From Amoebophrya sp. AT5.2 (Eukaryota; Sar; Dinophyceae; Syndiniales; Amoebophryaceae), in contig RXOD01004024.1 in NCBI GenBank assembly GCA_005223375.1, forward strand, positions 1 through 31,359: a stretch of DNA of 31,359 nt, read 5' to 3'. Below are positions 10,801 through 30,333 of the stretch, piece by piece; the stretch's first letter is position 1; every line of letters starts with the position of its first letter. The notes under the pieces are model-generated. The model made no database searches. It had not been told where the DNA came from and was given only the letters and a program-made list of their open reading frames with translations. A program made the translations under genes and the position numbers.

Positions 10801-13800
10801 CACGTGCAAATCAATGTGAACGCAGACACTCCGCTTCACATTGACAAAGGCAATGTCCCCGGCACGAAGACGCTTATCATCGGCTTCGGTGATTACGAAG
10901 GAGGTGAGTTCTTCGAGGAAACGCCGGGCATTCCGTTGCACCATGCGCGGAAGACCGGGAGAATCGAGACAGCTGGCGAGATGCTCAGGCGGAGCGGTGG
11001 CGAGGTTGCGTACCTCAAGGGGCAGCAAGTTCCTGGGCACACCATGAACGTGAAGCACCGGCCGCACTTTTTTGAAGGCTCCCGCCTGGCTCACAAGAAC
11101 TTGCCGTGGCGAGGAACGAGACTCGCGCTGCTAGCGTACACGCGCCCTCTGGTCGTCGCGGCCCCGCTATACAAGCAGCGAATCGGGGCTGCAGTCGCGG
11201 ACCTGTTGCGACTCGGAATGAACTTGCCGCTAAACATCCGGGAGGAGTACCTGACGGCCGATTGCTGCGACACACTGGAAGAGGTCCAGCAACTGAAGAG
11301 AGTTGGCGGGGGCCTGTGCGGGGGAGCAGCAGCAGGTGGAGGCGGAAGTGGAGCGGACCCGAACAGAGCAGCTAGGGATAACATTTGCAGCGAGACGGAT
11401 CTCGACGACCTAGCGCGTGTCGCGCATAAGCTTCGGCAAGTACCGACGACAGCGAAGATAGCCGATCTCTCCGTCGGTGGAATTCTGGGAATCAAGCTGG
11501 AGGAGCACGAGCACCAGTCGGGACCTGCTGTTACAAGGGCCCGCAGCTCCAGGAGAAGTAGTGACAGCGACAGTGGTAGGGGTAGCGCGTCAGACTCAGA
11601 GTCTGGCACGTCGTCGAGTTCGCCGAACTCGTCCACGTCAGACTCTGACAGGAGCGGCAGTGCGGACATGGACATCAGCGAACAAGGTGAAGATGCGGGT
11701 GGTGCTGGTACCGGGAGTGGGAGTGGCGACCAACAGCAGCACCGCGAACCTGCGCCTCTTACTCGACCGCCGCAGGACCAGGATGTCGACATGCCGTTGC
11801 CGACGCGGACGCCTGCTTCAGCGACCGCGGCGGCGCCCGACGGGGGCGCCGCCTCAGATCACCTGCCGCTACTTGACCCCCCCCACACAAGTCCTTTGCC
11901 TCCTCGACGTCCCGCCGCCAATGCATTGTCAACACCGAAAAGCGCTCTGGTAGAGGTGTACGAAGTTGGTACCGAAGATGAACAAGCGGCGCGTGGACGC
12001 TGCAACGAGCATCCAGGAGCCGAGAGCAGACCAGAACTCCTTTGCCTGCACGGGTCGACGCAAGAATGGCAACATGAAAAGTCCGTCTCTGCTGTTGCCG
12101 CCGGCGCTGCGCCATCGCCGGATCACCTCCAGTCACCGATTGCATGCGAAGGACCGTCCTCAACAGCATGCTTGGCGCGGCGACCACACCACTCTGCCGA
12201 ATCGGACGAAGACTGCGCTTCGGGTGGCTGCACGCCCATCGACATACCAGAGGAGGTGTTGCTGGAATGTCCGATCTTGAAGCCTCCTGCGCTTGCAGCA
12301 CCTGCTGATAACACGCCGCTCCACTGGATGTCGACGGTCGACGTCCAGTTCCACTCCGGTACTCATGATCGTGAAAACGGCTGGAAAAGGGACGCGGAAC
12401 TGATGAGCGACAACATGATGAACCCGTGGCTTCTCGAGCGCAACGATATCGGAGGCGAGATGGACTGGCAGGAACACGAAGACGAAGAACAACCAGCGGA
12501 AAGAGAAGGCACTAGTCTTGTCGTGGCGGAAAAGAGCGCAAAATGTGAAGAGACGTCGTTCGGTAGAGACGACGACCAGCGGCGCGGCGATCGTCAGCTC
12601 TTGAAGTGGATCGAAGCAGCCGTAGACGAACATGAAGGTGTAGGTGAAAAACAGCAACAAGTAGTAGCTGCGGTTTCGCTCCACGATCACGAAAGGAGTA
12701 GCTGCAGCAGTAGTGTTCATTTTCATCATGACGACCAAAACCTGAACAATCTTGGGCTCCCTCGTCGCTCTGCCGAAGATACTAAAACTGACTTTGGCGC
12801 TTCCTGTGTGGGCTTCTCTAAGGCTGGAAATGTGGCGCAGCAGCATGCCCCACGACTTGCGCGGCCGTCGACACGAGCAGCGACAGCTTTTGCGAGGTGG
12901 CAATTCCAGTCTTCGGCCTTTGATCCCAGCGCTGTGGTTACGATTTGCTGCGTCCAGGGACTCTTCGTTGCGCAAATGACATACTGTTCTTCCTCGGGCG
13001 ACGTCGATAGCCACTACAATAAGAACTTCTTGCAGCCAGGTGTGGAAGCGGCCCGGCAACAGCTGCAGAGGATGATCCCCGACAGCAGGTCAGACGTGCG
13101 TCAACTAGCCGCGGCTGGGCACCTGCTGAAAGTGGACACGATGGCCGTTCCCGGAGTCGGAGAGTATCGCCAGCACCCCCTCTGGATCTATATCTTGCCA
13201 ATCTTGCCGAACCGTCGAGACAAGATTCTGCGTCCATTAAGCGACTGGGAGGCAAACACGTGCAGCAGGCGTCTCCAAGGATTCCACTCTCAGCAACAAG
13301 TCAAACAGGACCGACAAAACAGGCAGCAAGAGCAAGTCGCCACTTTCAACAACGACGACAGGAGGCCGTGGATCAGCGGCAAGAACCGAATGGGAATGCC
13401 GCGCAGTTGTCGGATTGAGATTCAAACGGGCAGGAGCTACGTCACCTACTACGGTGGCCACAGGGACAGACATGCACATGAAGAGCGTCCGCTTCCGTGG
13501 ACCGCCACGGCACCTGCAGGCATCGCGGGGGCTCCAGAAAGAGCCTCCGCGCTTGCAGCACCAGCGTCGGATGAAAGAACAGAAGCTGGCCAAGAAAAAA
13601 CCCATCGTACTCGAAGTAGCCGAACCCGTGATCAAAGTAAAAGTCCTCGTGTTGAACTTGAAGGCACGATGAAAAGGAAACAAAGAACAGACGAGGGCGC
13701 TCATGGGGAGCCGGCGACGAACTACGACCGGCGAGAAATAACCAGCACAAATTACACGACGACCAGAGGACAAAGAAGGCCCGCCTCGTCCTCCTCTGAA

Positions 13801-16170
13801 GATGATAAAAAGGGTCTTCAGAACGTATTGCAGAACGAAACCCGCCTCCGCCAACGCGCAAAGTATATAATAGACAACACCGCCGAGGCCGAGACGCGCT
13901 TTCCCTTGCGTCGCTTCTATGTGCGAGGAGGACCGGCCGCTCTGGCCGCTTTTAGTCGCTCTGCGGCACGTTCCTCGAGGGAGAGCGCGGCTCCCTCGTC
14001 AACCCTCGACGTCCGCGTAGATCTAGAGCATATATTGGCCACCAATGCTAACGAATCACCGCATGACAAAGAACGCCCGTTGCGTTACATGAATCCTCAG
14101 CTGAAGAAGCACCAGAAGACGTTGCCAGAGCTTTACTGCGAAGCGCAGAAGCAGGAGCGGGAGCAGGAAACGACATCGCCGCAGTCAAAGCGACAGCGCC
14201 ACCAGCAGCACAACGACCACAACCACAAGGCGTCCTCGCGGCAAAATAGAGCCACTATTTCCACCACTCTCTCCTCGGTGCCTGGAGGCTCATCTCGACT
14301 TGCTGTGGCTGGTGAGGAGCTGCAGATAAGGCCGGTTGTCCTTGTCGACCCCTCGGCGCGCCCCCGAAGACCGAATCCTTTCGCTTTTTCTCCGCCGTCG
14401 GAGTCGGACGAGTCGGAGTCCCGGCCGCAAGCTCCTAGCAACAAGAACCTTCCAGAAGAAACAAAGACAAACCCAAATCCACGCACATTCCGATCCGGCG
14501 CGAGTCATCGATTTCCGCACCAAGAACATGTGGTTCATGAAGTGAGTGAACGTGAAAGTGATGTGCTCGGCATTCTCGGCACATCAAACAGAAGGGAAAC
14601 TCCTAATCCTTTGCCTTTTCTTGTGAAGGAAAGAAATGGACTCGGACCAGAGGAAGCTGAAAATGGTGCTGATGTGAAAGACAACGAGACGGGACAGCGA
14701 CAGCACTTTGCTCCGGCGTCGCAGGAAGTGCGGGGAAGCAGGGGAACTACACCTTCTCCGCTAAAGAAGAAGCAGCAACCTTCGCCGTGCGCTCAGCGCC
14801 AGGTGCTGTGCGCACGGCGGAACTACGACCGGCCTGCACATTCAGAACACGGGGACGCGAGTCAGCTGCAGGCGGAAGCCCCGAGCCCCACTCGAGAAAA
14901 ATGCGACGTAGACAAGCCAAGAACAGTGGAGACGAAAGGGGAGATCGAAATCATTTGCGCGGAGGGGAACAGCGACGGAAGCAAGAAGGACCGCGAGCGG
15001 CTCCAGCGCAACTCCTCGCCAGCGCGCATCAAGAACAAGTCGAGGACGAAGGAAAGGAAAACCAAGACGAAGACTCAACATCCAGAGCGTCGCTGCAGTA
15101 TCGTGAAGTCGAAGCGCGCGAGCGATCGCATTCCTCGACCTGGTACTCGTAGTTGTAGTAATTCTCCACTTGCTGCTGGTCCTGGTGCTGGTGCTCAGCC
15201 TCACAGGCTCACTCGCACTCCGACCTCACCTATAATTGCGCCCGTAGCTACAGCTGCTACTGCCAGCCTACGTTCACGTAGCTCGCCCGGATCCGGGTCT
15301 CGCAGAAGCACGAGTGCCGTCAATGATGCTGAACTTGAGCAAGGCGATCGTAAGAGCGGCCGAAAGAAATCGCACAAGGGCAGGATTAAGTTAAAGGTAG
15401 AGCTGAAAAGAAACGCCGAAAAGTCTGCGTCGCGCGAAATGGAACAGAAGGTGAAGAAAGAGAAACGAGTTCTCCTCCGACGTCGATCGTCGGTGGAAAA
15501 GGAGCGTCGGCGTCGGAGACGGCCAGACAACGGCGACGAGGAAGGGGATCGTGGAAAGCGGGTTGTAGAAGATGATGTCGACAAACCTGACCATGCACGC
15601 CGGGGCTGCAAGATCAAGAAAAAAAGAATCGACGAGGGTAATGCTAAATCGTCTGTCCGACCTGGTGCCGACTGCCGCGAAGCCACATCCAAAGCGACAA
15701 CGAAAAGCATACTCCTGCGTGGCCGAAGTACGGAAAAACGCGAAAAGTCAAAAATGAAAATCGCGGAGCCTCCTGGTGTAGCAGCAGCGGACACGAAAGT
15801 TCGAAAAAAGGACAGGAAGAAGAAGAGGAACAGCAGCGGGAGAGCGAGAAGCACCGGGAGGATGTGGATGGAGAGGGCCGAGGAGCTCGCGCCGGCGTGT
15901 TGTGAAGTTGCGTCCATTAAGAAACGAAGAAGATCCAGATCGCTTCCGGACCTCGACCAGCCTCTGGACGCCTTCATTCCTGATGCCACGAAGGCAAAAC
16001 GACTGAAAGTTGAGACAGCAGCAGCAAAGCCAAAGAGCAGTTCGCGGAGGCTGCACCACGTCAGCGCTCACAGCAGCTCCGAGGACCGAGTGCGCAAGAA
16101 TAAAAAGAAACAGAAAGCAAGTAAAGCGGAAAAGGGCCGCAAACGGAAACGCAGCCACTGTTGGGATTAA
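7837..16170 (+). CDS. Giant basic disordered protein with 2-oxoglutarate/Fe(II) dioxygenase-like domain
   Basis: One uninterrupted frame of 2,777 codons. Residues 1 to about 860 are low-complexity (Ser, Thr, Ala, His, Gln). Residues about 868-1105 form a compact domain with the hallmarks of the double-stranded beta-helix Fe(II)/2-oxoglutarate oxygenases: HID (H1001, D1003) as the first two iron ligands, GDYEGGEFF (from 1019), distal H1086 in SRLAHKNLPW, and R1095 in WRGTRLALLAY to bind 2-oxoglutarate. All four key residues are present, so activity is plausible. The substrate is unknown. A second folded-looking island is at about 1687-1830. The last 700 residues are Lys/Arg/Ser-rich with many nuclear-localisation-like clusters (KKKRKR type), suggesting a nuclear, nucleic-acid-associated protein. 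ATG 7837 is the first in-frame ATG, but the first 120 codons have weaker coding character than an overlapping frame, so the true N-terminus may differ. Confidence 0.75.
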   Translation: MSAAPSSRYAPRPPVDASDSASETSDSECPPRAAREAAPRAGRRAMACTQLSVVRCNDEWWVVVTNGYRGTSLTLRVLVCLSDGASSSGQLQPPRPLVLVVRATHGAARPAENQTRLEHLIENEAERKEIRTNMRADDLENFVRARKEVLWARLQKEGSVGEDMTMLPVEKNYSGELQHERANLAQMEMMMMSMKLTKQEENSAAPGPHKNTASCVVHYHSTHHLQNQHPSAPAERSLGHAVPGQQPCTTTTGVSSSRSRTSTSLNLSREHHPQHHLKEQLQPLTPSSSFPGGHSSAVSGGVAVSLQGNSCSRHLRNADPSTKTGEALAALGAEVRALRTIKLEEAVPAAHHSGSSSNSGRGVHAPASSVDIRRAAQSSSHDIDHASAVPLCRKRKSKFAIRTRRSPPQSSRNDMMTNRGGQLPGQQKTPHVFAPQPRTAASVPRREHCSSTSVASASSCSATAIATVTRPGDAHAYASTTSEGRTRTAAPLNNMKHTSAPRGPPMLHREPHHSSETPSLGERVPSNGTIAAAAGQLHQCRPILPPAASTSGKIAAPSGSTTNTTQDLFLLELTEEDMCAFFKRGGGLGGVTNEKENSTSGLVLAPLCLSHNSYALTPPGEVTSDAQLHDAEATTGRAGGMGEHARTRPLAVALAVDEHQEGVGNLLQERTAPVPVAAPITVRKEVLESSSSTASSSSLFVCSGKKSVQRDWASQQRKQSKASKLRSKVADVLRAADTEETQGLDLAYEFDRAADFKDVKVVRAMLEAGGQQEGDDHALLQTLLLEEVESRVKNSEAPGERGGPSGGSGCDEVHTPSKSGTNMSENFDNGRCDAGAQKKKRRLEPRVAEATRPLCPKLVKVDDPEKPWDIGSDWRPSFCGVVSVRPGLPRELRSRTLRDMQFQQLQYVGKLFARLVCGLQLMQHKRRIYKGGTRAGILIGTHFCYGRTNDSWRPNLVRFVTGVIRLYLDFAAASGAMRAIDCSDFTYTHVQINVNADTPLHIDKGNVPGTKTLIIGFGDYEGGEFFEETPGIPLHHARKTGRIETAGEMLRRSGGEVAYLKGQQVPGHTMNVKHRPHFFEGSRLAHKNLPWRGTRLALLAYTRPLVVAAPLYKQRIGAAVADLLRLGMNLPLNIREEYLTADCCDTLEEVQQLKRVGGGLCGGAAAGGGGSGADPNRAARDNICSETDLDDLARVAHKLRQVPTTAKIADLSVGGILGIKLEEHEHQSGPAVTRARSSRRSSDSDSGRGSASDSESGTSSSSPNSSTSDSDRSGSADMDISEQGEDAGGAGTGSGSGDQQQHREPAPLTRPPQDQDVDMPLPTRTPASATAAAPDGGAASDHLPLLDPPHTSPLPPRRPAANALSTPKSALVEVYEVGTEDEQAARGRCNEHPGAESRPELLCLHGSTQEWQHEKSVSAVAAGAAPSPDHLQSPIACEGPSSTACLARRPHHSAESDEDCASGGCTPIDIPEEVLLECPILKPPALAAPADNTPLHWMSTVDVQFHSGTHDRENGWKRDAELMSDNMMNPWLLERNDIGGEMDWQEHEDEEQPAEREGTSLVVAEKSAKCEETSFGRDDDQRRGDRQLLKWIEAAVDEHEGVGEKQQQVVAAVSLHDHERSSCSSSVHFHHDDQNLNNLGLPRRSAEDTKTDFGASCVGFSKAGNVAQQHAPRLARPSTRAATAFARWQFQSSAFDPSAVVTICCVQGLFVAQMTYCSSSGDVDSHYNKNFLQPGVEAARQQLQRMIPDSRSDVRQLAAAGHLLKVDTMAVPGVGEYRQHPLWIYILPILPNRRDKILRPLSDWEANTCSRRLQGFHSQQQVKQDRQNRQQEQVATFNNDDRRPWISGKNRMGMPRSCRIEIQTGRSYVTYYGGHRDRHAHEERPLPWTATAPAGIAGAPERASALAAPASDERTEAGQEKTHRTRSSRTRDQSKSPRVELEGTMKRKQRTDEGAHGEPATNYDRREITSTNYTTTRGQRRPASSSSEDDKKGLQNVLQNETRLRQRAKYIIDNTAEAETRFPLRRFYVRGGPAALAAFSRSAARSSRESAAPSSTLDVRVDLEHILATNANESPHDKERPLRYMNPQLKKHQKTLPELYCEAQKQEREQETTSPQSKRQRHQQHNDHNHKASSRQNRATISTTLSSVPGGSSRLAVAGEELQIRPVVLVDPSARPRRPNPFAFSPPSESDESESRPQAPSNKNLPEETKTNPNPRTFRSGASHRFPHQEHVVHEVSERESDVLGILGTSNRRETPNPLPFLVKERNGLGPEEAENGADVKDNETGQRQHFAPASQEVRGSRGTTPSPLKKKQQPSPCAQRQVLCARRNYDRPAHSEHGDASQLQAEAPSPTREKCDVDKPRTVETKGEIEIICAEGNSDGSKKDRERLQRNSSPARIKNKSRTKERKTKTKTQHPERRCSIVKSKRASDRIPRPGTRSCSNSPLAAGPGAGAQPHRLTRTPTSPIIAPVATAATASLRSRSSPGSGSRRSTSAVNDAELEQGDRKSGRKKSHKGRIKLKVELKRNAEKSASREMEQKVKKEKRVLLRRRSSVEKERRRRRRPDNGDEEGDRGKRVVEDDVDKPDHARRGCKIKKKRIDEGNAKSSVRPGADCREATSKATTKSILLRGRSTEKREKSKMKIAEPPGVAAADTKVRKKDRKKKRNSSGRARSTGRMWMERAEELAPACCEVASIKKRRRSRSLPDLDQPLDAFIPDATKAKRLKVETAAAKPKSSSRRLHHVSAHSSSEDRVRKNKKKQKASKAEKGRKRKRSHCWD
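10438..11151 (+). other. Fe(II)/2-oxoglutarate dioxygenase-like domain within the giant protein
   Basis: This is the part of the 7837-16170 product that can be assigned. Key residues, numbered from ATG 7837, are H1001-x-D1003, G1022-G1023, H1086 and R1095. The pattern H-x-D, about 18 residues, D-Y-x-G-G-E-F, about 60 residues, H-x3-P-W-x-G-x-R matches the classical order of the superfamily. The closest-looking subfamily by eye has the form HxD..N..G.....GDY.GGE followed by FxG...H..L.F.G.R, found in many algal and fungal proteins. I cannot separate nucleic-acid, histone and prolyl hydroxylase relatives without a search. Confidence 0.75.
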
Positions 16171-16848
16171 CACGAACAGTACGTCTCGGCGCAAGTGGAC
16201 GCTGATGCTGAAGCAGTTGGATAATGATGGCACCTCCACGAAGAAGAGAGTCAGAGTGAAGAGGCGTAGGCGTCGACCCAAGAAAAAAAAAGTTGAATTG
16301 CTAGACGAGTGTAAGAAAGTAGAGTGAGTAGCTAGCTCAAAGTCTCCCCATTTCGAGCGCTCTGGTCGCTAAGTTTGCTTCTAAAAACAAGTGCGTTCTC
16401 TTGAAGAGTTCGCTTCTGTCCCCGCCAAGCTGTCCCTAGAATCTCAGCCGCGGTTTCTTGCTCTAGTACCTACCTACGGCTCCTCCAGCTATTGGCACCG
16501 AGTAGCGCGAGTGGTCGCCATTCCACAAGTTGTGAACTACTTATGGAGCAGGTGGCCATTGCAAAACTGCACGGAACGACAGAGAGCGCCGGCCGCGCGC
16601 ATGAAGAACATGACTTTCATCACGAACTCAGCCTCGGAGCGTCGACAACGTTAGAAAATTAGAAATGAAATCCTGTAGCCGTCATGCGTGGTCGAGTAAT
16701 TGAATTTAGCGCCTCGCTCTATTCTTTCGTGACGCTGACGCTGATCCGGATCTTCTTCCGATAATTCATCGTGAATTTAATGAGCAGAAGATGGAGAAGA
16801 TGGCGATAGAGAATCATTGAGCGCCCCCGCTTGTTGTTACTTCGTCAG
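16171..16848. other. 0.68 kb between two giant genes, no firm gene
   Basis: A frame that overlaps the end of the upstream gene runs to 16327. It encodes a very basic tail (RVKRRRRRPKKKK type), which could be an alternative C-terminus. A second frame, 16391-16654, has no recognisable features. Otherwise the stretch is AT-richer and holds nothing I can identify. Confidence 0.35.
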
Positions 16849-19800
16849 ATGTTGTGGACATCCATGAGACGTAGGCGTCGTTCTTTTCTCGATTCATCGA
16901 TGAGGGAGCATGTCGATGTCCATGCCTTGCTCGGCGTCGTGAGAGGGTGCGTGCGCGTGAGCAACATCAGCACGAAATTCATCACCATGGACCTCGACGA
17001 GTCTTGGTTTTCTGCCCGTGACGTGGGTGGTCGTGCTACTGATCACATCAATGCTTCTGAAAAAGTAGATGTAGAATGTGGCGGTACCAGCACCGACCTT
17101 CTTCTACTTCTCGACGTAACGCCAGATATGAGTATGTATAGTGACATTGATGTCGTCGAGGACGAGCTCGCGACGGCGTTTTGCGAGCTCGAGGCCCGGG
17201 CAGCATCGGCGACAAACGGCGAGTACACATTGGCATTAGCCGCCCGGCGCCAAAATCAGGAGAGTCATGATAAGATTAACGAGAACGCGGAGGACGCCGC
17301 CGCCCCTTCTTCTACAGCCGACGCAGCTAAAACTACCGCTGCAGCGACAGATCTCTCCTGTGGCCCTTGGAGCGAACGAAAAATCTTCAGCCTGCCAGAC
17401 CAACAAGCTGCGGGAAACGACGAAGACCGGCCGTTTCGCATTGGCGGGTACCCGTCTCAGGCCGCTGGGTCGCGCCGCGTCGCATTCTCCCCCGCCATGA
17501 TGCAATTTTTGAACAACCCACACCGACTCGACATTCGACTGGAAACCGAGTATCGGAATCGATGGCGGCACCAGAAGGCGCGGGACATGTTTCACGACAC
17601 TTACGACCTCTGCACTTTCGCCACGCACCGAGAAGACCTCACGAGCATCTACTCATCGACCGCGGGGGCGGCGGGGGCGGTCAGACCCGATGAGATTTTG
17701 CCGTTTCTCGCAGCAGACATCAGATTTCCGACATCGAGCATCGAAGTGCGCTCGCGCGTCGTCACCGCAACGTCGGGGCCGTACGCATTTCCGCATTACC
17801 ACGTCACGGGGAGAATACGAAAACGGGTGAACAACAAGGGCAAGTCTGCGGTTGCGAACGTGACGCGAGGTCCCGGTCCGCCACCAGTTCTAGAGGACAA
17901 AAGATGTGCGAGTGGGAGTGCAACCACGAAAAAGAAGATGATCAGTTACAGTACTGCTAGCGTTGCAGCGGGCAATGCGAATGCCGCAGTCGCAGCGTCG
18001 ACCAGGTCGACAACTTCATCTACTTCTGCAGCAACGCCTGTCTCGTCCAAATCGTCTTCATCTGGTGCACAAGCACTCGGGCAGAGTTCAAGTTCTTTGT
18101 GCTTGGCAGGCGCTGGCACCTCCACCAACAGCACGACGAGTACGAGTAGCAGTTCATTGGCAAACGCAAACGCAAGTAGTAGTGGATCTTGCCCCGCTCC
18201 CGCGGCCGGCCCGCCCAGCACAACGCAATCGGGTGACGCAACTACGCAACAACCCGCGGGACAGGAGACGGAGAAGTTGCCGAATGAAGGAGCAGCACGG
18301 CAACCGGCCGGTGCTGACGTTCCGACGAAAAACGCGTTTCAGTTTTGCTCAAGAAACACACCCAATGAGGCGTTTCAAATTCCGACGAACGAGTGTGATG
18401 TGTGCGCCGACACACCAAGCCAGTGGAACAAGGAATTGCCGCTGCGCGACGACCAAAAGCGCACGCTTGCCTGGATGCAGAGCCGGGAGCGCAGAGCAGG
18501 GACATCAACACCAGCAGCAGTCCTTCCAATGCTGTTTCGACGCTTCGCGCCTTTGGAGCGGCTGGGAGGAGATGCAGATGGCGACGTTGGCAAGAAGGTA
18601 GACGACGACGGAGCAAAGCGGAGGTTCTTGGAGATCGAGGTAACTGCGCACTTCCCAATGCTCGGTGGTATCCTGGCGGACGAGACCGGCTACGGGAAGA
18701 CCGTCACAACTCTGGCGCTCATCGCTTCGGACGCAGATGCTGTTGAGCACGTAAAAGAGCAAGAGCAAGACCTCCACGAGGAGAAACTAAAAACTGGCCT
18801 TTATTCATCTTCTGGGAACCCGTCAGCATTCGGCTCAACGTCGTCAGGCAGCAGTAGCAGCCGCTGCAGGAGCAGTACGTGCCCGGAGATCACGAACTCT
18901 CACTCTCTCGGGCCGGTAGGAGGGGGCGCTACTACCGGGCCAGCACAAGCACCAGAAGTACATGATGGAGGTGACAAGGGCAACGCAGCAGGACGAGAAC
19001 AGGCGACGAAACCGAATGCGGAAGATACCCAACTCGATTGCTCGACGACGACCCTGATAATCACGCCGCCGCACATCTTGCAGCAGTGGGCCGACGAGGC
19101 GGAGCGATTTTGCGCGTCCGCGTGCCCGAAGGTGCTGCGCATCTCAACATTCGCAGACTTCGAGCGTGTGTTTTCTTCCAAAAATACCATCACTCGGCAG
19201 CGACAGGCACAGGAAACCGCCGGAAGAGTGAAAAACGCGAAGCAGGCTCGAAAACGCAAAAAACAAGAAAAAGAAGACGATAACGAACTCGCGTTGGATT
19301 TTGACAGCACGACCGGCAGGATTGAACACATTGACATCGAGATGACCGGAGTAGAACACGATGGAGGAAATCGCTGCGGGGGCTTCGATAGCGTAAAAAA
19401 AGTTGCCGACTCCACCAGTCAGGCATTCGCTTCCACCACGACCAAACAGGATGAAGCTGCTAACGACGCTGAGCTGCACTCCAAGATCACCAGTGAAGAA
19501 ACAGGAATAAACCCGTTCCGGGGGCACAACATCGTGCTGGTGAGCAGTAGTGTACTTCTCAGCGCACGGTATCTGGCGGCGCGGGAGAAATGGGAACCGC
19601 AACCGACTAGAACTAGTTCAGAAGGGGGTGATCGTGATGGGGCGCACAAGGTATCAGGATCGGTTTCCGGTGAGTCCACGACGAACTCTTCTTCCGGTTC
19701 CGCCACGGCAACGAGCTGCCTGCTCCCCGTCACGGTCGTAAAGGACCATCTTCCGGCCGAAATCGACGGCTCCCCAACTGTGCAAAAGATGTTGGCGCAC

Positions 19801-22800
19801 CGGAAGAAGTACGGCAAGAACGTGAAGCTGTCTTCGAAAAACAAGGAGCTGAAGGCGAGAGTTTTTCCGAATTCGCATCATAGTAGAGGACGTGGTGATG
19901 GTGAAGCTGGAGTAGCCAGAGGTGCGCGTCGTGACTCTGCTGGTGCGGAAGAGGAAGCCGACGAGACGGTGTCGGCCGTTGCCGCGCCCGCAAAGAAGCG
20001 GAGGCTCGCAGTAGCATCGGAATTGACAAGTGGAATTGGAAACAGCGGCTCTGTCGTCGCAGCACAACAATTTGTCAAGACCAGTAATTCCGCGTCTGCT
20101 GCGACTTGCTCAAGCCTTAGCTCGTCGAGCAAGCAGCGTTTCGGGCCGTCCGACGCTAACGCTTCCACGTCGATCGAATTCGAATCCACCTTTGCAACGT
20201 CATCAGCTGTCGACGGTGGGCCGCAACTGCTGACTCCTCTCCACGCTTTCCGTTGGCGGCGAATCGTCTTCGACGAGTTTCACGAGGCCCTTGACGAATT
20301 CGAGCGGAAATCAGCGTCGCAGATCGAGAAGAACGGGTTCTTTCTGTGTGACTTCATCAATACTGCGCAAACACCTGTCTGGGCGCTCACGGGCACACCC
20401 GACGTGGACAGTGTTTACGACGTGGAGCTGATGGCGAGCATTTTCGGAGTGGACCTCCTGGGGGTGTCGCGCGCGGGGGCGTCAGCACTGCAGGAACTGC
20501 ACTGCCGACGCCATGAGCTAGGCGCAGTTGAGACTCCGCGTATACCGTATGGCCCATACGCGGAGTACGAGTCGAAGCTTCAGTGGGGAGTGCATGAGAC
20601 CTGGGGAGTCACCGGACCACACGGTCATTTGCCAACCGAGGAACTGATGCCGCGATGTCACGACGTGGAGAACGGAACGGTCGACGGCTGGGAGGAGATA
20701 GTGGCGGAACCTGGAAAGAAGCAAACACGAAATAAAAGCATCCTCCGGAACAAGGACGATCGCTTCGCGGAATACCACTACCGCCCCGCGGGCCAAAACT
20801 ACAAGTACCTGAAGCTTTCCGAGGCGGGTGCGTGGCGCTGTCATTTGTGCGGGGAGAGGCCGACGCGCTTGCGGCAGTGCGAGGTACGTGAAAACCCCGA
20901 GAAGTTTGTGTGCGAAAATTGCGGTCTTGATTCCCACCACTGGACGTGCACGAGCGGCAAACCAAACCATCAGAGCCAGCAGGCGGTGATTACAAGAAAT
21001 GAATATGGCGAGGAAACAAGGAAGAACCTTCGATCCTTACGCTTCGAACTGGTGAAAACAGCCCCGTACTTCGATCAGCTACGCACTATGACCGAAGATA
21101 AATGGGACAAGCGGTCCTGCACTATTTTCACCCGTGTTGCTTCGCTCCCCGTCGACGATCAGCTGGTCTGCGAGGCGAAAAAGGCCACGAAATCAAAACG
21201 TGACGCAGACGTCCCCAATTTCACGACCCCGCTGCTTCGCGGAGGTGGACTCGTCGACAACCAGCTTACGGTCGACGAGCAGAGGTGCTACCTCTACCCG
21301 CAGGATAACGTCGCGCGGAAGCGGGAGTATTTCGTGAAGAACGTTCTGTTCCCCTCTCGCGGCCATGACAGTTTGCACCCATTCGACAGATCGCGGCTGT
21401 GGCGCAGAAACGCCCAGAATTTTCTAGCGAGTTTCGCACGCCGGAATGCCGCTGTCGGCGTGGACCACATCGTTCTGGAGGAGCGCCGGGTGCTAGTGGA
21501 GCTCGAGGCAGCGGAAAAGGCCTTCTACTTGCAGGAGGAGAATCGACTAGGTAGCGAGCAGAAGCGACAAGCCCCATCCCTCGAGGACCGCGAAACGCTG
21601 CTGAAGCTGTGCAGCCATTTCGGAAAAGTACACTCCAGGGGTGCTGGTCGAGCGATAAATGCGCTGCTGAGTCCTGCTGAAGCCTGTGCACGCGAGCTGC
21701 GCTGCCAGCAGAGAACGGTCCAACTTGCCGTCGACGCGGTGTGTGCGATCATTCGCGTTCTCGATTACCTCGCGACGCAAGGCCGGCTGCGACACTTCTT
21801 CCGAGGAGATGAGGACAAAGTCGTCGAAGACATCGCGAAAAATACCGTGCGCGAGCAAGCATTCGGAAGCGGCGACGACAGCGCCCAGCACAAAAACCGT
21901 CAGAGCAAGTGCAAAGGCGCGCTTTTCCTCCCGCCGGACGTTCTTGACATCCTACGTTCATTTTCATTCGCGTCGCAGTCTTTGTCCGCTTCGTCAGATG
22001 AACCTGACAAGGAGCAGGACCCAGTAAGATCTGCTATCACCGATGTGCTTGCCCAGAAATACGCGGACGGTCGTGCTGGCGCTTCTCTACCATTTGACGA
22101 TGACTCCGCAATGCAGGCGTTTCTCGGGAGTACGTTGAAGCGCGTACAGAAGATGACTGACAAGCAGGCAGCGGCGGGTCACCCGACTGTTCTCCCCCAG
22201 AACTCGGTCGTGATTCTCCAACGTTTCGCACGCTTTGCGATCTACGCCGCGGGTAGGAAACGCGCAGACGCTTGGTATTCTTCGCGAGACAATGCGGTGT
22301 CGGGTCAAAGTTACGCACAGCAGTTTGCCCACGACATCCGCACAAACCATCGAGCGATTGTGACGCATTTCTCGAAGTGTCTCGTCGAGCTTCGCAACAC
22401 CGTCGCAAAGCTTCAATTCTTCCAGAAAGTGAGCAAAGACTGTTGCGCGGAAAAAGCGGACGCGGAAGACGACGAACATAGCGACGACCACTGTCCCGTC
22501 TGCCTCTCTGAAGACCTCCCGCCCGACCAGCTTGTCGTGCTCACGTCGTGTGGGCACCGGTTTTGCCACGAGTGCGTGCAGTGCCTCGTGCCCGTCGGCG
22601 AAGCTTCCGCATCCGGCTCGACGGACAAGACGACGTGGTCGTGCAGAAAAAAGTGTCCCACATGCCGAACCGTGTTCAAGGATCCAGACCACGTCGTGCC
22701 GCTGCCCGACGCACAGAAGGTCGCGAAAAGCGCTGAGGCCGGGAAGCTGGCGACGACCAGGTTTGCGAAGAAAACTGATTCTGTACGGAAACTGGGCGAC

Positions 22801-23592
22801 TTCAGCGTGTTCGGCACAAAAATCAAGACCATCGCGGAAACGATTCAGGCGGAAAAGGCGAAGGATGCGGGCGCGAAATTTATCGTTTTCGTGCAGTTCG
22901 ACAGCCTCTTGGAGATTCTACGCAAGTGCTTCGCGGCGTTCGGGTTGAATTTCGTCACGCTGGCCGGCGCGACACCAGAGCAGCAGGCGAAGTTTTTGAC
23001 CAACTTTCAGAAAGAAGCCGCGGCTGTTCGCAATTCTGCAGCGGCACCATCGAGCTCAACCTCATCGGGAACCGTGACATCTTCCTCGCTCGCTGTTCCT
23101 GCTTCCTCCGAGGTCGCCCCCGATCAACATTCCACTGCGGAGCCTCCGGGAGGCAATGCCTCAAGTCTCCTTCTCAGCACGCGCGGGGAAATCGGTGAGA
23201 ACCCAGACATTTTGCTGATGTCGCTGAATAGGAACGCGGCCGGAGCAAATTTGACGCAGGCGAGCCACGTGATTTTCGTACACCCGATGTGCGGGGATCT
23301 GAACACAGCTCGAGCGGCTGAAATGCAGGCTATCGCGCGCGCGCGGCGCTTCGGCCAGAAGCGCAAGAAGGTCGTTGTTTATCGCTTCGTCGCACGCGGA
23401 ACGGTGGAGGAAGAACTGTCCGCGGAGCACGAATCGGCGATCGCGCAACAGCGAGAAGCGGATAGAAAAATGCGGGAAGGTGGCGGGCACCAGGGAAAGG
23501 CGACTGGGGCGGGATCAGGAGGTATTTCTGTAGCGGGGAAACAGCAAAGCGGGTTGGGCACGCTGAAACGCCGGAAGATCGAAGCCTCATAA
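16849..23592 (+). CDS. Rad5/HLTF/SHPRH-like SNF2 ATPase with zinc finger and RING finger
   Basis: A 2,247-residue intronless frame encoding a nuclear DNA-translocating ATPase with a predicted ubiquitin-ligase RING inserted between the two helicase lobes, as in Rad5, HLTF and SHPRH. That family acts in post-replication repair and in chromatin. Numbered from ATG 16849, motif I is DETGYGKT (611-618), the LIITPPHILQQW segment follows near 733, motif II is D1142-E-F-H1145, and motif III is ALTGTPD near 1180. A Cys/His finger lies at 1331-1367 (C1331, C1334, C1344, C1355, C1358, H1363/H1364, C1367). The C3HC4 RING uses C1882, C1885, C1901, H1903, C1906, C1909, C1936 and C1939. Lobe 2 has KFIVFVQFDSLLEIL, LNRNAAGANL (2126 on) and motif VI ARARRFGQKR. 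Long Ser/Ala-rich inserts split lobe 1 and lobe 2. An in-frame ATG at 16987 lies in an ideal caccATGg context and may be the true start. Confidence 0.9.
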   Translation: MLWTSMRRRRRSFLDSSMREHVDVHALLGVVRGCVRVSNISTKFITMDLDESWFSARDVGGRATDHINASEKVDVECGGTSTDLLLLLDVTPDMSMYSDIDVVEDELATAFCELEARAASATNGEYTLALAARRQNQESHDKINENAEDAAAPSSTADAAKTTAAATDLSCGPWSERKIFSLPDQQAAGNDEDRPFRIGGYPSQAAGSRRVAFSPAMMQFLNNPHRLDIRLETEYRNRWRHQKARDMFHDTYDLCTFATHREDLTSIYSSTAGAAGAVRPDEILPFLAADIRFPTSSIEVRSRVVTATSGPYAFPHYHVTGRIRKRVNNKGKSAVANVTRGPGPPPVLEDKRCASGSATTKKKMISYSTASVAAGNANAAVAASTRSTTSSTSAATPVSSKSSSSGAQALGQSSSSLCLAGAGTSTNSTTSTSSSSLANANASSSGSCPAPAAGPPSTTQSGDATTQQPAGQETEKLPNEGAARQPAGADVPTKNAFQFCSRNTPNEAFQIPTNECDVCADTPSQWNKELPLRDDQKRTLAWMQSRERRAGTSTPAAVLPMLFRRFAPLERLGGDADGDVGKKVDDDGAKRRFLEIEVTAHFPMLGGILADETGYGKTVTTLALIASDADAVEHVKEQEQDLHEEKLKTGLYSSSGNPSAFGSTSSGSSSSRCRSSTCPEITNSHSLGPVGGGATTGPAQAPEVHDGGDKGNAAGREQATKPNAEDTQLDCSTTTLIITPPHILQQWADEAERFCASACPKVLRISTFADFERVFSSKNTITRQRQAQETAGRVKNAKQARKRKKQEKEDDNELALDFDSTTGRIEHIDIEMTGVEHDGGNRCGGFDSVKKVADSTSQAFASTTTKQDEAANDAELHSKITSEETGINPFRGHNIVLVSSSVLLSARYLAAREKWEPQPTRTSSEGGDRDGAHKVSGSVSGESTTNSSSGSATATSCLLPVTVVKDHLPAEIDGSPTVQKMLAHRKKYGKNVKLSSKNKELKARVFPNSHHSRGRGDGEAGVARGARRDSAGAEEEADETVSAVAAPAKKRRLAVASELTSGIGNSGSVVAAQQFVKTSNSASAATCSSLSSSSKQRFGPSDANASTSIEFESTFATSSAVDGGPQLLTPLHAFRWRRIVFDEFHEALDEFERKSASQIEKNGFFLCDFINTAQTPVWALTGTPDVDSVYDVELMASIFGVDLLGVSRAGASALQELHCRRHELGAVETPRIPYGPYAEYESKLQWGVHETWGVTGPHGHLPTEELMPRCHDVENGTVDGWEEIVAEPGKKQTRNKSILRNKDDRFAEYHYRPAGQNYKYLKLSEAGAWRCHLCGERPTRLRQCEVRENPEKFVCENCGLDSHHWTCTSGKPNHQSQQAVITRNEYGEETRKNLRSLRFELVKTAPYFDQLRTMTEDKWDKRSCTIFTRVASLPVDDQLVCEAKKATKSKRDADVPNFTTPLLRGGGLVDNQLTVDEQRCYLYPQDNVARKREYFVKNVLFPSRGHDSLHPFDRSRLWRRNAQNFLASFARRNAAVGVDHIVLEERRVLVELEAAEKAFYLQEENRLGSEQKRQAPSLEDRETLLKLCSHFGKVHSRGAGRAINALLSPAEACARELRCQQRTVQLAVDAVCAIIRVLDYLATQGRLRHFFRGDEDKVVEDIAKNTVREQAFGSGDDSAQHKNRQSKCKGALFLPPDVLDILRSFSFASQSLSASSDEPDKEQDPVRSAITDVLAQKYADGRAGASLPFDDDSAMQAFLGSTLKRVQKMTDKQAAAGHPTVLPQNSVVILQRFARFAIYAAGRKRADAWYSSRDNAVSGQSYAQQFAHDIRTNHRAIVTHFSKCLVELRNTVAKLQFFQKVSKDCCAEKADAEDDEHSDDHCPVCLSEDLPPDQLVVLTSCGHRFCHECVQCLVPVGEASASGSTDKTTWSCRKKCPTCRTVFKDPDHVVPLPDAQKVAKSAEAGKLATTRFAKKTDSVRKLGDFSVFGTKIKTIAETIQAEKAKDAGAKFIVFVQFDSLLEILRKCFAAFGLNFVTLAGATPEQQAKFLTNFQKEAAAVRNSAAAPSSSTSSGTVTSSSLAVPASSEVAPDQHSTAEPPGGNASSLLLSTRGEIGENPDILLMSLNRNAAGANLTQASHVIFVHPMCGDLNTARAAEMQAIARARRFGQKRKKVVVYRFVARGTVEEELSAEHESAIAQQREADRKMREGGGHQGKATGAGSGGISVAGKQQSGLGTLKRRKIEAS
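22492..22665 (+). other. C3HC4 RING finger within the SNF2 protein
   Basis: CPVCLSE, then TSCGHRFCHECVQC, then CPTCRTVF give all eight metal ligands in RING order with normal spacing, apart from a longer, Ser/Thr-rich gap of 26 residues between the sixth and seventh ligands. In Rad5-type proteins this RING recruits the Ubc13-Mms2 E2 for PCNA polyubiquitination. Whether that applies here is inference from architecture. Confidence 0.9.
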
Positions 23593-25902: not shown

Positions 25903-26403
25903 GTCGAGGAGGTCTTCTGGCGATGTCGTGTCCTGCCTCAACAGCGAGAATGAATGCGGATGGGCATGGACAATTTCTTTGTGGTACCGCTTTGTTCTTC
26001 ATCTTCTACCGGAACGAATGACATTCATTCCTTCACATAAGGATAAGTAAGTGGCATTCAGAATGTACTTTCTAGCGCCCAGCAGCGCACAGGGAGGACA
26101 GACCGACACACCTCCATGATCAGGCACCTTTACCACACGCACCGCCACAACTACTTCGTGCCGTAGAGTTTCATTTACACCACGAATGATTACTATGTAT
26201 GGATTTTTATCGAGCGAACGAAGTAAAAACTGAAGCTTGAGGGCGTGGTCGTTTCTCAGTATAATTTGTGGCGGGTCGCGTAGATTCTGACTCACCTTTT
26301 TGCGCGACCAGCTCCTTCGAATAGGCTTAGGCATGAAATAAATAGAAGCTTTACAGAGTCGTGTCGAGAAAGCGAAAGATGTGATAACAATCGCCAAAAT
26401 AAA
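25903..26403. other. 0.5 kb intergenic region, nothing recognised
   Basis: Short AT-richer spacer between the TFIIS-like gene and the actin-processing fusion gene. No coding-like frame continues across it, and no repeat or RNA gene was seen. The next gene's ATG follows an A-rich leader (ccaaaataaaATG). Confidence 0.45.
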
Positions 26404-28170
26404 ATGACTCAGCTCCGTGTTTGCGTGCTTTCTGACCGCCCGGAGCTGATTGAGCAGGCCCTGGACCTCGTGGACTCGGAATGGCCCAAGGAAGCCCACC
26501 TCCGCGAAGAGCGGCGGAAGTCCATGAACACTTCCTCCTCTTCCCCGCACCACCTGCTACCGTGCCATCTTGCGGTGTTCGAGACGGCGGCATTCACAAC
26601 GCCGGCTCCGCCAGCAGTGAAAACGCCTGTACCATCTTCGTGGCCGCTACTAGCGACTGAAGACGACGCAGAACCGGTGCTGGTTGTAGCCCCCAGAGAA
26701 GAACAAGCTCTGCGAGGACCTGATGCAGACGTAATCGATGGATTACACAGCGCAAATAAGACTAACGACAAGGTAGTCGCGCACTTGAAGCTGGCGAGCA
26801 CATTCGTGAGTAACGAGGCCGCACCTTGCGCGATGCTCTTCTCGCTTGTCGTCGACCGCGCCAGGCGTGGGTGCGGGATTGGGAAGCGCTTCTTGGAGAA
26901 CGCGATTAGAAGCCGGCTAACTACAACGAGCACTACTTCTATTGGCGTGGTTCCGTACCTCTACCTCGATTGCAAGCCGGAGCTCGGACAGTTTTACGAG
27001 GCATGTGGATTTCGAAGGTGTGCGCAAGCCGGAGCTACGCTGGGGAAGGTCGTGACGAGCTCCAAGATCGAGAATTTCACGGAGAACAGCGTCGCAAAGC
27101 TGGAGAATATGCTGGGGGCACAACTTCTGCGGCAACGAATGCTGAAGGGTGGGGGTGGTGCTGATGCGATCCAGGGCCCTCTGCAGGCAGCCGGCAGGGC
27201 GGATTCTCCGGAAGTTGTTAGCAGGCCGCTTTTGCACTTTCGGCGGCGCTTGCGACATTCTTGGCCGCTGGAGCAAGACGTATTCACACGGAAGTCGGTG
27301 GCCCGCGAGATGACGCTGTCTTCCGACATCATCAAGGCGGACGACTCGCCGATTGAGTTTTGTTATTTCCTCGACAACTTTCCGCACCAACGGCAGATAG
27401 GCCCCAGCTGCGGAATGGTGGCGCTGAATATGGCAGCCGCGTGGCTGCTGAGCTCAGCATCGGCGGGGGGAACAACCAAAACCATCGACGAAAGAAACGA
27501 AAATGTTGCGCAGCGCGTTGCTGAGTCGGACCACGACCTCGACTCTGTCAAAGAGATGTTTGAGTATGCAGCGAACGAAAAGAACCGCTTGTCCGACGAT
27601 GGTGAACTCTTTTCCTGCGAGGCGATGCAGCAGCTGGTTAGCAACTGCGAGTTTGCGAAAGGATTGGAGGCCGAAATTGTTGGCATGAACGAAGACGAGC
27701 TGACAAAGGTGCTAGGAGTATGCGCCTCGTTTGGTACAGGTACGTCTAGCTCCGGGTCCGTCAAGGATGTGGATGAAGAGGAAACTCGACCTGCATCGAC
27801 GACAACAAGTTGCTCCTCTTTGCAGCCACCCGTGGTGTTGCTCGTTCCTTACGACAAATCCGCTGGGGATAGTGCGCCCGTCGCGATTAGATCCGATAAC
27901 GAAGAGGAGCACGCGCACTGGGGTATTTTGATAGGGGTTGCCGTTGCCGTCGCAAAAGTTGAGGCAGAGGCAGAACAAGCAGAAGCACAGACTCAAGGGT
28001 TTTTGTCATGTGAATGCCTACCGCGAAAGCAAATTGTATTTGTGGCACACGGTCTTTCTCGGAAGGTTGTTCATTGCAGCCTGGACGTCTTGATGTTGTC
28101 AAACCAAAAGTTGCGCGCGCAGGGCCTCCGAGGACGGGCGGTCCTAATGAGCAGGAGACGACGCGACTAA
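26404..28170 (+). CDS. Fused NAA80-like N-acetyltransferase and ACTMAP-like actin maturation protease
   Basis: A 588-residue intronless gene with two enzyme halves. Residues 1 to about 225 are a GNAT acetyltransferase closest in pattern to NAA80 (NAT6): it opens with RPELIEQALDLVDSEWP, has the acetyl-CoA loop R154-R155-G-C-G-I-G160, and ends with YLDCKPELGQFYEACGFRR. Residues about 315-588 match the ACTMAP/C19orf54 peptidase family: QIGPSCGMVALNMA with the predicted nucleophile C336, GELFSCEAMQQLV, VVLLVPYD, then EEHAHWGILIG with predicted catalytic H505, and a final KQIVFVAHGLSRK segment. In animals ACTMAP removes the acetylated first residue of immature actin, and NAA80 then acetylates the exposed acidic end. 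Here both steps probably reside in one cytosolic protein. Low-complexity inserts sit inside both halves (about 38-75 and 440-465). The first is proline-containing (TTPAPPAVKTPVPSSWP), reminiscent of the profilin-binding loop of NAA80, but this is speculative. The start at 26404 is firm because the domain begins at once. Confidence 0.85.
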   Translation: MTQLRVCVLSDRPELIEQALDLVDSEWPKEAHLREERRKSMNTSSSSPHHLLPCHLAVFETAAFTTPAPPAVKTPVPSSWPLLATEDDAEPVLVVAPREEQALRGPDADVIDGLHSANKTNDKVVAHLKLASTFVSNEAAPCAMLFSLVVDRARRGCGIGKRFLENAIRSRLTTTSTTSIGVVPYLYLDCKPELGQFYEACGFRRCAQAGATLGKVVTSSKIENFTENSVAKLENMLGAQLLRQRMLKGGGGADAIQGPLQAAGRADSPEVVSRPLLHFRRRLRHSWPLEQDVFTRKSVAREMTLSSDIIKADDSPIEFCYFLDNFPHQRQIGPSCGMVALNMAAAWLLSSASAGGTTKTIDERNENVAQRVAESDHDLDSVKEMFEYAANEKNRLSDDGELFSCEAMQQLVSNCEFAKGLEAEIVGMNEDELTKVLGVCASFGTGTSSSGSVKDVDEEETRPASTTTSCSSLQPPVVLLVPYDKSAGDSAPVAIRSDNEEEHAHWGILIGVAVAVAKVEAEAEQAEAQTQGFLSCECLPRKQIVFVAHGLSRKVVHCSLDVLMLSNQKLRAQGLRGRAVLMSRRRRD

Positions 28171-28531
28171 AAGTGGCTCTGATTATTTCTACGTGGTAAA
28201 AATGGAGTTGATCAAGTTCAAAGTCAAGAACGAAGGATCGCTGCAGTGACTTGTTAACCTGACACCTGAGGCACAGACACACGCAAGTGGTGATAATCAA
28301 AGGCGGAGGGTGGCTTCATTCTGCGAAAGAAAGATCTTTCGCGGCGTGCTTTCTTCGCCGATTTTGACTGTGAGTGAATGTGAGCGAGCAGTGGTCAGTA
28401 TCATCTAACTATGTTTGTATCCGACGAGAACTACCGGAGAGGCCCATTCTGGCTGCGCAGAAACTAACACTGCGACGTAGTGCAGCTGTTGCTGTAGGTG
28501 TAGGAGTATCCCGCTGCTCGGCTACTTTCTT
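28171..28531. other. Short spacer before the Sec14-like gene
   Basis: No coding-like frame. It contains a 12-bp perfect palindrome, GAAAGATCTTTC (28329-28340), of unknown meaning. It probably holds the 3' end of the fusion gene transcript and the promoter of the next gene. Confidence 0.4.
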
Positions 28532-30333
28532 ATGTATCTAAACAACAAGAACAAGGCTCGCCCTAAAAACGGCCAGAAGTTCGAACAAGTAGTACTTTAT
28601 TTAAGAAAGTTTACGTGTCGTGTAAAAAAATGTTGCCGCAAGCGCAAGCCGCGCAAGGCGTCCCGCCAAGAAGCTGCTGATCTCACCATGGCGACGGCCG
28701 TTCCCGCAGGCACCTCCGAAAGCGACCTACTGGTTGCGTCTGCTCCAGCGAGCGGCAATGTTGAGGAGGGAGATGCTATACTGCTGGACACCGAGTTTGA
28801 ATCTGCAGCGTCGTCGGGCAACCGCCTTTCAGCTCCATTAGATGAAACCACACACGTGGCGCCCGAAAACGGGTTTGTCGTCGGCGGAGAGGTTCTCACC
28901 GCGGAGGAGCGCGAGAAGGTTTCCCAACTGCGGTCCCAAATTGCAGACCTGCTCCCGCAGCTGTCGCAGAGTGGCGTCGCCAATTATGTCGTTTCAACTG
29001 CAGCTTCAAGCTCTTCAAGTTCAGCCGGGGCGGATCATCGGTTGTCGGAGGGGGCCGAAGCGGATCGGTTGCGGGAGTGCGACCTGCAGCACACGTTGAT
29101 CCGGTTTCTGCAGGCCCGGAACTTCGATGTCGCCAAGACGAAGAAAATGCTGGAGAGTCACGTGAAATTTACGCAGAAGTACGGCTTGCCGATCCTCCGG
29201 CCTGCACAGATTAAGGAAGTGGCGCTGCGGTCGGGGTGCTGGACTTTCATGGGGAGAAACAGCAACCAATGGAGAGCCGATCATCGTGATCCAGGTCGAG
29301 CGGTGGAATCCGCACGAATTCACGGTAGATGACTACATTCGCTACATCTGCTTCTTCACCCAGCACAGCATCGCCGTCACCCAGCAGTCACTCTTCGGGA
29401 CGCGGGGCCGGGAAGATGAAGACGCTGGAAAACGCTACCCATTCTGCAGGGGGTACAGGAACTTGTTCATCTGCACGCTTTATTCTTACGGTGTGGTTTT
29501 GATACTATAGATACCTCGCTCAGACTTTGACTGCCTCTTGCCTGTGGCAGAGTTCGGATGTCTGTGCCTCTATTACGCTAGAACCGGACGAGGAATCCAA
29601 TTTCAACACAGGCTCGTGGTGATCTTCGACATGCGAGGCTGGTCCCTTTGGATGGCGAAGTACGTGAACTATATTCGCCACCTGATCGCCTGCGTGCAAG
29701 ACCAGTCACCGCAGCTTCTGGCGCGTTGCTACCTCGCAAACACGCCAAGGATCTTCCAAGTTGTGTGGAAGGTATTTTAGGGTTACTTAGTTGTTCTCTT
29801 GTACATATACTTATTTCCATTCTTACAACCATTATAGGCCTCCTCGTTGCCTCTGGTTGTGATTTCTCATTCCCTCCTCGCTCGAGATGGAGCTTGACCT
29901 TGGCTAGCACTCTCGATTTTTTCCAACGCAAAGAAACCCATGCTGGCGACTCACTTCTCCACAGATAATCGCGCCACTATTGGACGCCAGAACTCGGTCG
30001 AAAATAAGCTTCATGAAAGTGGACGCACAAGCCGCCGCCGCAGCCGAAACTGAAACTCGTGCGGATGAGAAGTGCCTCCGCAATGTTAGAACGAAAGAAC
30101 TTGGGACCGCGAACGCCACCCCCTTGTGCGTGTGTGGCGTCGATTGTGGCGACATGCTGGACGCGGAGCGCGTTTTCGAGCAAGCGATGACTCTGCGCAA
30201 AAAGAGCATCACGCATGAACTCATGCTAGACATCGGCCTCCACAACTTGCCGCAGAAACTCGGAGGCAAGAGAACAACACTTCCCATTCCAAACATAGCG
30301 GGCATACCGAGCGAACTCATCATTCCCGGTTAG
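28532..30333 (+). CDS. Sec14/CRAL-TRIO lipid-transfer protein (three exons, one apparent frame break)
   Basis: A Sec14-like phosphatidylinositol/lipid-transfer protein. ATG 28532 opens the frame, but ATG 28688 lies in an ideal caccATGg context and is the better start. After an Ala/Ser/Glu-rich leader, the CRAL-TRIO N-terminal helices appear: LRECDLQHTLIRFLQARNFD and AKTKKMLESHVKF. The lipid-binding domain follows as EPIIVIQVERWNPHEF, VVIFDMRGWSLWMAKYVNYI, RCYLANTPRIFQVVWK, then IIAPLLDARTRSKISFMK, ending with NLPQKLGGK, the family's usual close. Introns are 29453 to 29581 or 29611, and 29772-29964 (GT-AG, phases matching). Near 29262-29271 the frame shifts by one base: upstream reads CWTFMGRNSN, downstream reads GEPIIVIQ, and a normal domain would join them directly. 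No intron of suitable length fits. This could be an assembly error, a mutation making a pseudogene, or a +1 frameshift. An insert (about 23 residues, AQAAAAAETE...) follows SFMKVD. Confidence 0.75.
29453..29611 (+). other. Predicted GT-AG intron in the Sec14-like gene (phase 2)
   Basis: Donor GGG|GTACAG at 29453. Acceptor is either ACGCTAG| at 29581 (129 nt) or CAACACAG| at 29611 (159 nt); both keep phase 2 and lead into LVVIFDMRGW. The frame upstream runs into a stop at 29508-29510 without the second half of the lipid-binding domain, so an intron is needed here. Confidence 0.6.
29772..29964 (+). other. GT-AG intron in the Sec14-like gene (phase 0)
   Basis: Donor GGAAG|GTATTT and acceptor CTTCTCCACAG|ATAATC, 193 nt, phase 0. 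Splicing joins QVVWK to IIAPLLD, the typical CRAL-TRIO order (aromatic-Trp-Lys then Ile-x-Pro-hydrophobic). Without it the frame stops within three codons. This is the best-supported intron in the window. Confidence 0.8.

Follow-up and report, generated by a model that had tools for sequence, protein, structure and literature searches.

In animals, the N-terminus of actin is processed through ACTMAP cleavage and NAA80 acetylation, both of which are treated as specific to animal actin by Myklebust et al. (PMC10318143), and the cited passages of PMC10318143 and PMC11465159 describe both post-translational steps as specific to animals. Actin N-terminal processing in the broader sense is presented in a review as widespread, but not universal, among eukaryotes (PMC11853071), and processing in Dictyostelium was reported in 1981, in a work whose title is cited in PMC10318143 and which is also cited in PMC8358657. 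The nucleophile of human ACTMAP is given as C132 (PMC13367750). Fly NAA80 reads the acidic actin substrate via W36, R38, R43 and S46, and its S124, T125 and I126 contact substrate residue 1, as described in PMC10318143. In most animals, a polyproline loop between beta6 and beta7 binds profilin, while insects lack this loop, according to PMC7864067. Among the literature matches listed, neither ACTMAP nor NAA80 was described in alveolates, and no NAA80-ACTMAP fusion appeared; the founding ACTMAP paper (Haahr 2022) might mention protist homologs or fusions.

The window, the whole stretch of 31,359 nucleotides analysed here, comprises positions 1-31359 of contig C228 in a genome of 50.7 Mb and 2759 contigs. 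An initial annotation had read one gene of this window as a NAA80-like acetyltransferase joined to an ACTMAP-like protease, and all the motifs that it cited occur in the translated open reading frame (ORF) at 26404-28170. The gene is divided as follows:

26404..28170, + strand: fusion gene, 588 aa plus stop in a single open frame
26404..27048, + strand: NAA80-like GNAT half, residues 1-215 (Pfam GNAT models near their cut-offs; PDB profile search)
27049..27363, + strand: linker (residues 216-320), conserved in Amoebophrya sp. A25, GC3 0.70
27364..28167, + strand: ACTMAP-like cysteine-protease half, residues 321-588 (PF21646 above cut-off in 3/3 fusion proteins)

The stop-to-stop frame around the gene extends over 26284-28170 (628 aa), with its first ATG at 26404 as read by eye, and the two other forward frames carry 25 and 22 stops across the same interval. 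In the 588-residue product, P0001, the acetyltransferase is located on the N-terminal side and the protease on the C-terminal side. The combination of a GNAT acetyltransferase half and a cysteine-protease half in one protein is confirmed by separate profile searches, which return the families that had been named. The locus in the window is the sole match of P0001 in its own genome.

The fusion gene is flanked by further long + strand ORFs, and the + strand carries all five of the longest ORFs in the window; gene arrays of dinoflagellates run one way, with which this arrangement may be compared. The adjoining downstream ORF (28481-29332, +) contains a CRAL/TRIO N-terminal domain (Sec14-like). 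An open frame of 2260 codons at 16810-23592 (+) shows SNF2-related, RING and helicase C-terminal matches and presumably resembles a HLTF/RAD5-type protein, and another of 2783 codons at 7819-16170 (+) has zero Pfam matches at E 0.1.

Residues 283-588, searched alone, match the Pfam family PF21646 (ACTMAP-like_C, actin maturation protease-like) with an E of 3.8e-12 and 47.1 bits, against a curated cut-off of 27 bits and with no second family, which bears out the ACTMAP-like identity proposed for this half. The full-length proteins score 43.7 bits for P0001, 56.4 for P0003 from Amoebophrya sp. A25 and 65.5 for the remote P0004. When the three protease halves are scanned singly, PF21646 is found in 3/3, and the sole other family is one match at E 0.22. 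Two sites are presumed to be catalytic:

27409..27411, + strand: Cys336, presumed nucleophile, in QIGPSCG, invariant 3/3
27916..27921, + strand: His505-Trp506, presumed catalytic His by analogy with the papain-like family, invariant 3/3

The Cys and the His-Trp pair are thus common to P0001, P0003 and P0004, and Cys336 is presumably the counterpart of human ACTMAP C132. The likeness to ACTMAP (C19orf54) consists of PF21646 above the cut-off and, presumably, the invariant Cys in QIGPSCG and the invariant His-Trp; the differences are the acetyltransferase on the N-terminal side of P0001, poorly conserved inserts in its protease half and a likely substrate of the type Ac-Ala-Asp, in contrast to Ac-Met or Ac-Cys. 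Among PDB sequences, the protease half has no meaningful match (13 rows, best E 0.27, 12/13 being proteasome subunits). The PF21646 search of the genome failed to recover even the copy in the window, and extra ACTMAP copies are therefore not judgeable from that search. Assignment of the protease half to the ACTMAP family is a strong prediction.

For the acetyltransferase half, the closest described enzyme is NAA80 (NatH) of Drosophila (CG8481) and human, likewise a GNAT with an acetyl-CoA motif. Residues 1-279 reach the cut-off of Pfam Acetyltransf_7 (27.0 vs 27) and slightly exceed that of Acetyltransf_1 (21.5 vs 20.7), full-length P0001 lies slightly under both (25.7 and 20.0), and P0003 and P0004 are above the cut-off in the Pfam GNAT models. 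GNAT acetyl-CoA motifs follow the rule R/Q-x-x-G-x-G/A, and the corresponding element is:

26866..26883, + strand: acetyl-CoA-binding motif R155-G-C-G-I-G160, with R155, G156, G158, I159 and G160 invariant 3/3

A profile built from the three GNAT halves was compared with 177,635 distinct PDB sequences. Among the best 60 of 76 matches, the top two PDB sequences for the profile are the NAA80s of fly (3e-11) and human (2.9e-7), in that order; serotonin acetyltransferase follows narrowly behind the human enzyme (6.1e-7), and NAA50, NAA60 and NAA10 stand well behind. With the full-protein profile of the three sequences, fly NAA80 is again first (6.4e-10), while two serotonin acetyltransferase entries outrank human NAA80, which is fourth (2.6e-5). 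Searched alone, P0001 finds Drosophila NAA80 (CG8481, 5wjd) first at a modest E of 0.0015 and human NAA80 fourth of six (0.22), and P0004 finds the fly enzyme first (0.001) and the human enzyme second (0.17) of five. For P0003 alone, the leading match of 13 is a plant serotonin acetyltransferase, and fly NAA80 comes in fifth place (E 0.07), which counts against NAA80. As controls from the same genome, the NatA-like subunit matches NAA10/ARD1 (8.1e-27 to 2.2e-24) and the NatB-like subunit matches NAA20 (1.6e-46), with no NAA80 among their 37 and 55 PDB rows. The profile therefore favours NAA80 and no unrelated GNAT family, and the NAA80 identity put forward earlier stands on the profile but not on the A25 protein alone, for which single-sequence support is weak and the plant enzyme comes first. 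A predicted membership of this half in the NAA80 family can be held with good confidence.

Specificity within the GNAT fold was compared at two sites:

26434..26538, + strand: alpha1-alpha2 segment, residues 11-45, in which W27, P28, K29, R37 and S40 match fly NAA80 contacts
26968..26976, + strand: D189-C190-K191 at the site of fly NAA80 S124-T125-I126 (residue-1 contacts), differing from fly

In the PDB-search alignments, where chain numbers are 9 lower, fly W36, R38, R43 and S46 correspond to W27, K29 (a conservative change), R37 and S40 of P0001; S48, also named in PMC10318143, was omitted as a misfit with the chain numbering. The counterparts are W, R, R and S in P0003, and P0004 retains only W and the second R. 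W27, P28 and R37 are invariant 3/3 in the half-only alignment, while the full-length alignment shifts P0004 in this region. This Trp-Pro-basic...Arg..Ser segment, which in NAA80 reads the acidic actin N-terminus, gives z values for P0001 of 8.9 against fly and 7.9 against human NAA80, with 0/1000 shuffles reaching the score. P0004 gives 4.4 and 3.7 and P0003 a weak 2.2 and 1.3, and z is at most 1.9 for eight other GNATs of the genome, namely those of 13 matches that were given loci. Over the GNAT core, z against fly/human NAA80 is 13.0/7.7 for P0001, 11.3/7.6 for P0003 and 17.5/12.6 for P0004, and the own-genome GNATs L001, L005 and L007 also attain 7.4-7.7 against fly, L001 reaching 9.6 against human. 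On sequence criteria, the core is nonspecific for NAA80 and the alpha1-alpha2 segment is more specific.

At the residue-1 contact site, P0001 and P0003 have D-C-K, human NAA80 T-T-H and P0004 Y-T-H. The residue-1 pocket is therefore unlike that of the fly enzyme, and the human and P0004 triplets indicate that this position varies within the NAA80 family. D189 would place an acidic side chain where the acidic substrate residue should sit, which would count against NAA80-like activity. Further differences from NAA80 are the fusion of the GNAT half to a protease and a loop of about 60 unconserved residues. The P0001 translation has no polyproline at the position of the beta6-beta7 loop; a proline-rich stretch near residues 65-80 occupies another location and is missing from P0003. 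A search of the genome for profilin gave no match and is uninformative, as its 14 controls were silent too.

The proposal had called for a search of related genomes for the same fusion, and the fusion was found in two further proteins. P0003, a 572-aa unnamed protein of Amoebophrya sp. A25, aligns over 99% of P0001 with 32% identity and an E of 1.5e-56 (37% in the MAFFT alignment), retains HAHW and terminates close to the corresponding position. P0004 (source 'lgn'), of 508 aa on a 7.5 kb contig, is remote (22-25% identity) with a matching two-domain order, and its halves relate to those of the window with z 6.9 for the GNAT and z 13.3 for the protease. Neither P0003 nor P0004 is listed under a functional name. 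The protein searches that found both scored the 7999 candidates sharing most words, and a search with the protease-half region of P0004 returned only itself among 1109 candidates; because the former were word-limited and the latter self-only, the rarity of the fusion is not judgeable. P0004 has zero matches in the genome of the window, and pattern-limited scans of IMG/VR and of GTDB species genomes found no relative. AlphaFold models from three-row alignments were unusable (pLDDT 30 for P0001 and 34 for P0004), and a Foldseek comparison of the latter, in which acetyltransferases reached a target-normalised TM of at most 0.40 among the best 50 of 803, was given no weight.

The linker between the halves is also retained in A25. 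Residues 221-318 of P0001 align with the A25 linker (98 and 85 residues) with a score of 69 and z 10.7, against a shuffle mean of 23.4; since none of 2000 shuffles reaches 69, both linkers are probably translated and constrained. The linker of P0004 shows no detectable conservation with that of the window (z 0.4). One region within the GNAT half is less regular:

26584..26754, + strand: loop of the GNAT half lacking conservation, residues 61-117; an intron (26562-26750) in the EukProt model

The interval 26562-26754 is stop-free and poorly conserved, with GT-AG ends at 26562-26750, which could be either an in-frame intron or the coding sequence of a disordered loop. The A25 protein carries a similarly long unconserved loop at the matching place. 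The lack of conservation would fit an intron, but the modelled excision would also delete LPCHLAVF, which resembles LPCSLVL of fly NAA80. The fusion is unaffected by this question. The EukProt model g991.t1 (P0002) starts from the same ATG at 26404, omits 26562-26750 and 27740-28709 (the latter located by hand) and runs on into the downstream Sec14/CRAL-TRIO frame, dropping the protease end. Since the protease end that the model excises is conserved in A25, P0002 was rejected as the real product and is taken to be wrong at its 3' side, where it appears to merge the downstream CRAL/TRIO ORF with the fusion gene.

The likely substrate is encoded elsewhere in the genome. Two tandem actin genes on contig C39 (L011, L012), labelled conventional on their first 138 residues, are identical over that length and begin MADDEVQALVVDNGSG (MADDEV); one actin-related gene starts with MAAVIANQ and another with MVDLEPTM. 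M24-family (MetAP-type) peptidases (5 matches) and NatA-like and NatB-like catalytic subunits are also present. Since both conventional actins start M-A-D-D-E-V, it is plausible that maturation converts an Ac-Ala terminus into an Ac-Asp one. In the proposed route, a MetAP would take Met off Met-Ala-Asp-Asp-Glu-Val, NatA would acetylate the exposed Ala, the ACTMAP-type C-terminal half would cut off Ac-Ala, and the NAA80-type N-terminal half would acetylate the new Asp, yielding Ac-Asp-Asp-Glu-Val. We infer catalytic activity, actin as the substrate, the order of the steps and any hand-over between both sites alike. The route parallels that of class II animal actin, from which Ac-Cys is described as being removed (PMC11465159, PMC8358657).

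The described ACTMAP substrates are of the Met-Asp/Glu and Cys-Asp/Glu types, whereas actin here is of the Ala-Asp type, which counts against the route. ACTMAP-type enzymes are not known to accept Ac-Ala. A function of the fusion on actin is predicted as likely, and the gene probably encodes a bifunctional actin N-terminus maturase, in which the protease would remove the acetylated first residue and the acetyltransferase would re-acetylate the acidic one. The coupled process that had been suggested is itself a reading drawn from the fusion.

Both halves could also be active in sequence on proteins other than, or in addition to, actin, as a general enzyme that removes and re-acetylates residues at acidic N-termini. 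The change of the residue-1 contacts from fly S-T-I to D-C-K and an actin Met-Ala-Asp start unlike the described type of ACTMAP substrate are consistent with this reading, but the residues that read positions 2-4 of the substrate are retained, actin is given as the sole known NAA80 substrate in PMC10318143, and loss of Ala exposes Asp-Asp-Glu on the actin of this organism; a main substrate beyond actin is therefore considered unlikely. Under another explanation, the protease is a true ACTMAP relative and the other half a generic GNAT with a different role, whose similarity to NAA80 arose by chance or convergence. The Pfam GNAT scores of P0001 that lie near the cut-offs, the closeness of plant serotonin acetyltransferase in the profiles together with its first rank for P0003, and the matches of some own-genome GNATs to NAA80 over the core all fit a generic enzyme. 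Such an origin is nonetheless improbable, given that the GNAT profile puts the NAA80s in its first two places (best 60 of 76), that P0004 on its own matches fly and then human NAA80 best in the PDB, and that the alpha1-alpha2 segment matches in P0001 and in 0/8 other GNATs.

The ORF itself might be an artefact, either because two adjoining genes fall into one frame or because the EukProt model (NAA80-like, truncated ACTMAP, Sec14) is real, as g991.t1, by omitting 27740-28709 and entering the downstream CRAL-TRIO frame, would have it. The frame, however, runs for 588 codons without a stop, the linker conserved with A25 (z 10.7, 0/2000 shuffles) argues against two genes, A25 keeps the HAHW part and a similar end, and the domain order of P0004 matches, which makes an artefact very improbable. 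An animal-derived sequence, acquired through contamination or recent transfer, would agree with the description of the NAA80 and ACTMAP steps as animal-specific in PMC10318143; yet the only relative recovered by name is from Amoebophrya and carries a matching fusion, the divergence from animal NAA80 is large, and the gene is set among long + strand ORFs, so an animal origin is scarcely credible. A bifunctional actin N-terminus maturase accordingly remains the preferred reading.

In conclusion, as judged from the translated proteins, the fusion is real and conserved, and it joins an ACTMAP-family protease to a NAA80-like acetyltransferase outside animals. The suggestion that the pathway exists far outside animals holds for both enzymes and not for processing itself, which had been reported in Dictyostelium as early as 1981. 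If the preferred reading is true, the fusion conserved among Amoebophrya relatives would place both actin-maturation enzymes outside animals and would provide independent gene-fusion support for ACTMAP and NAA80 as one functional unit. The chances are even that the actin maturation enzymes are much older or more widespread than described and that, in Amoebophrya-type dinoflagellate parasites, one polypeptide excises Ac-Ala and passes Asp to its own acetyltransferase; within this same reading, and held with equal reserve, Ac-Ala-Asp would be a third class of actin N-terminus. The compact bifunctional enzyme would be an object for structural work on the cutting and replacement of an acetylated residue, and through the fusion the old question of how protist actin N-termini are processed becomes directly testable.
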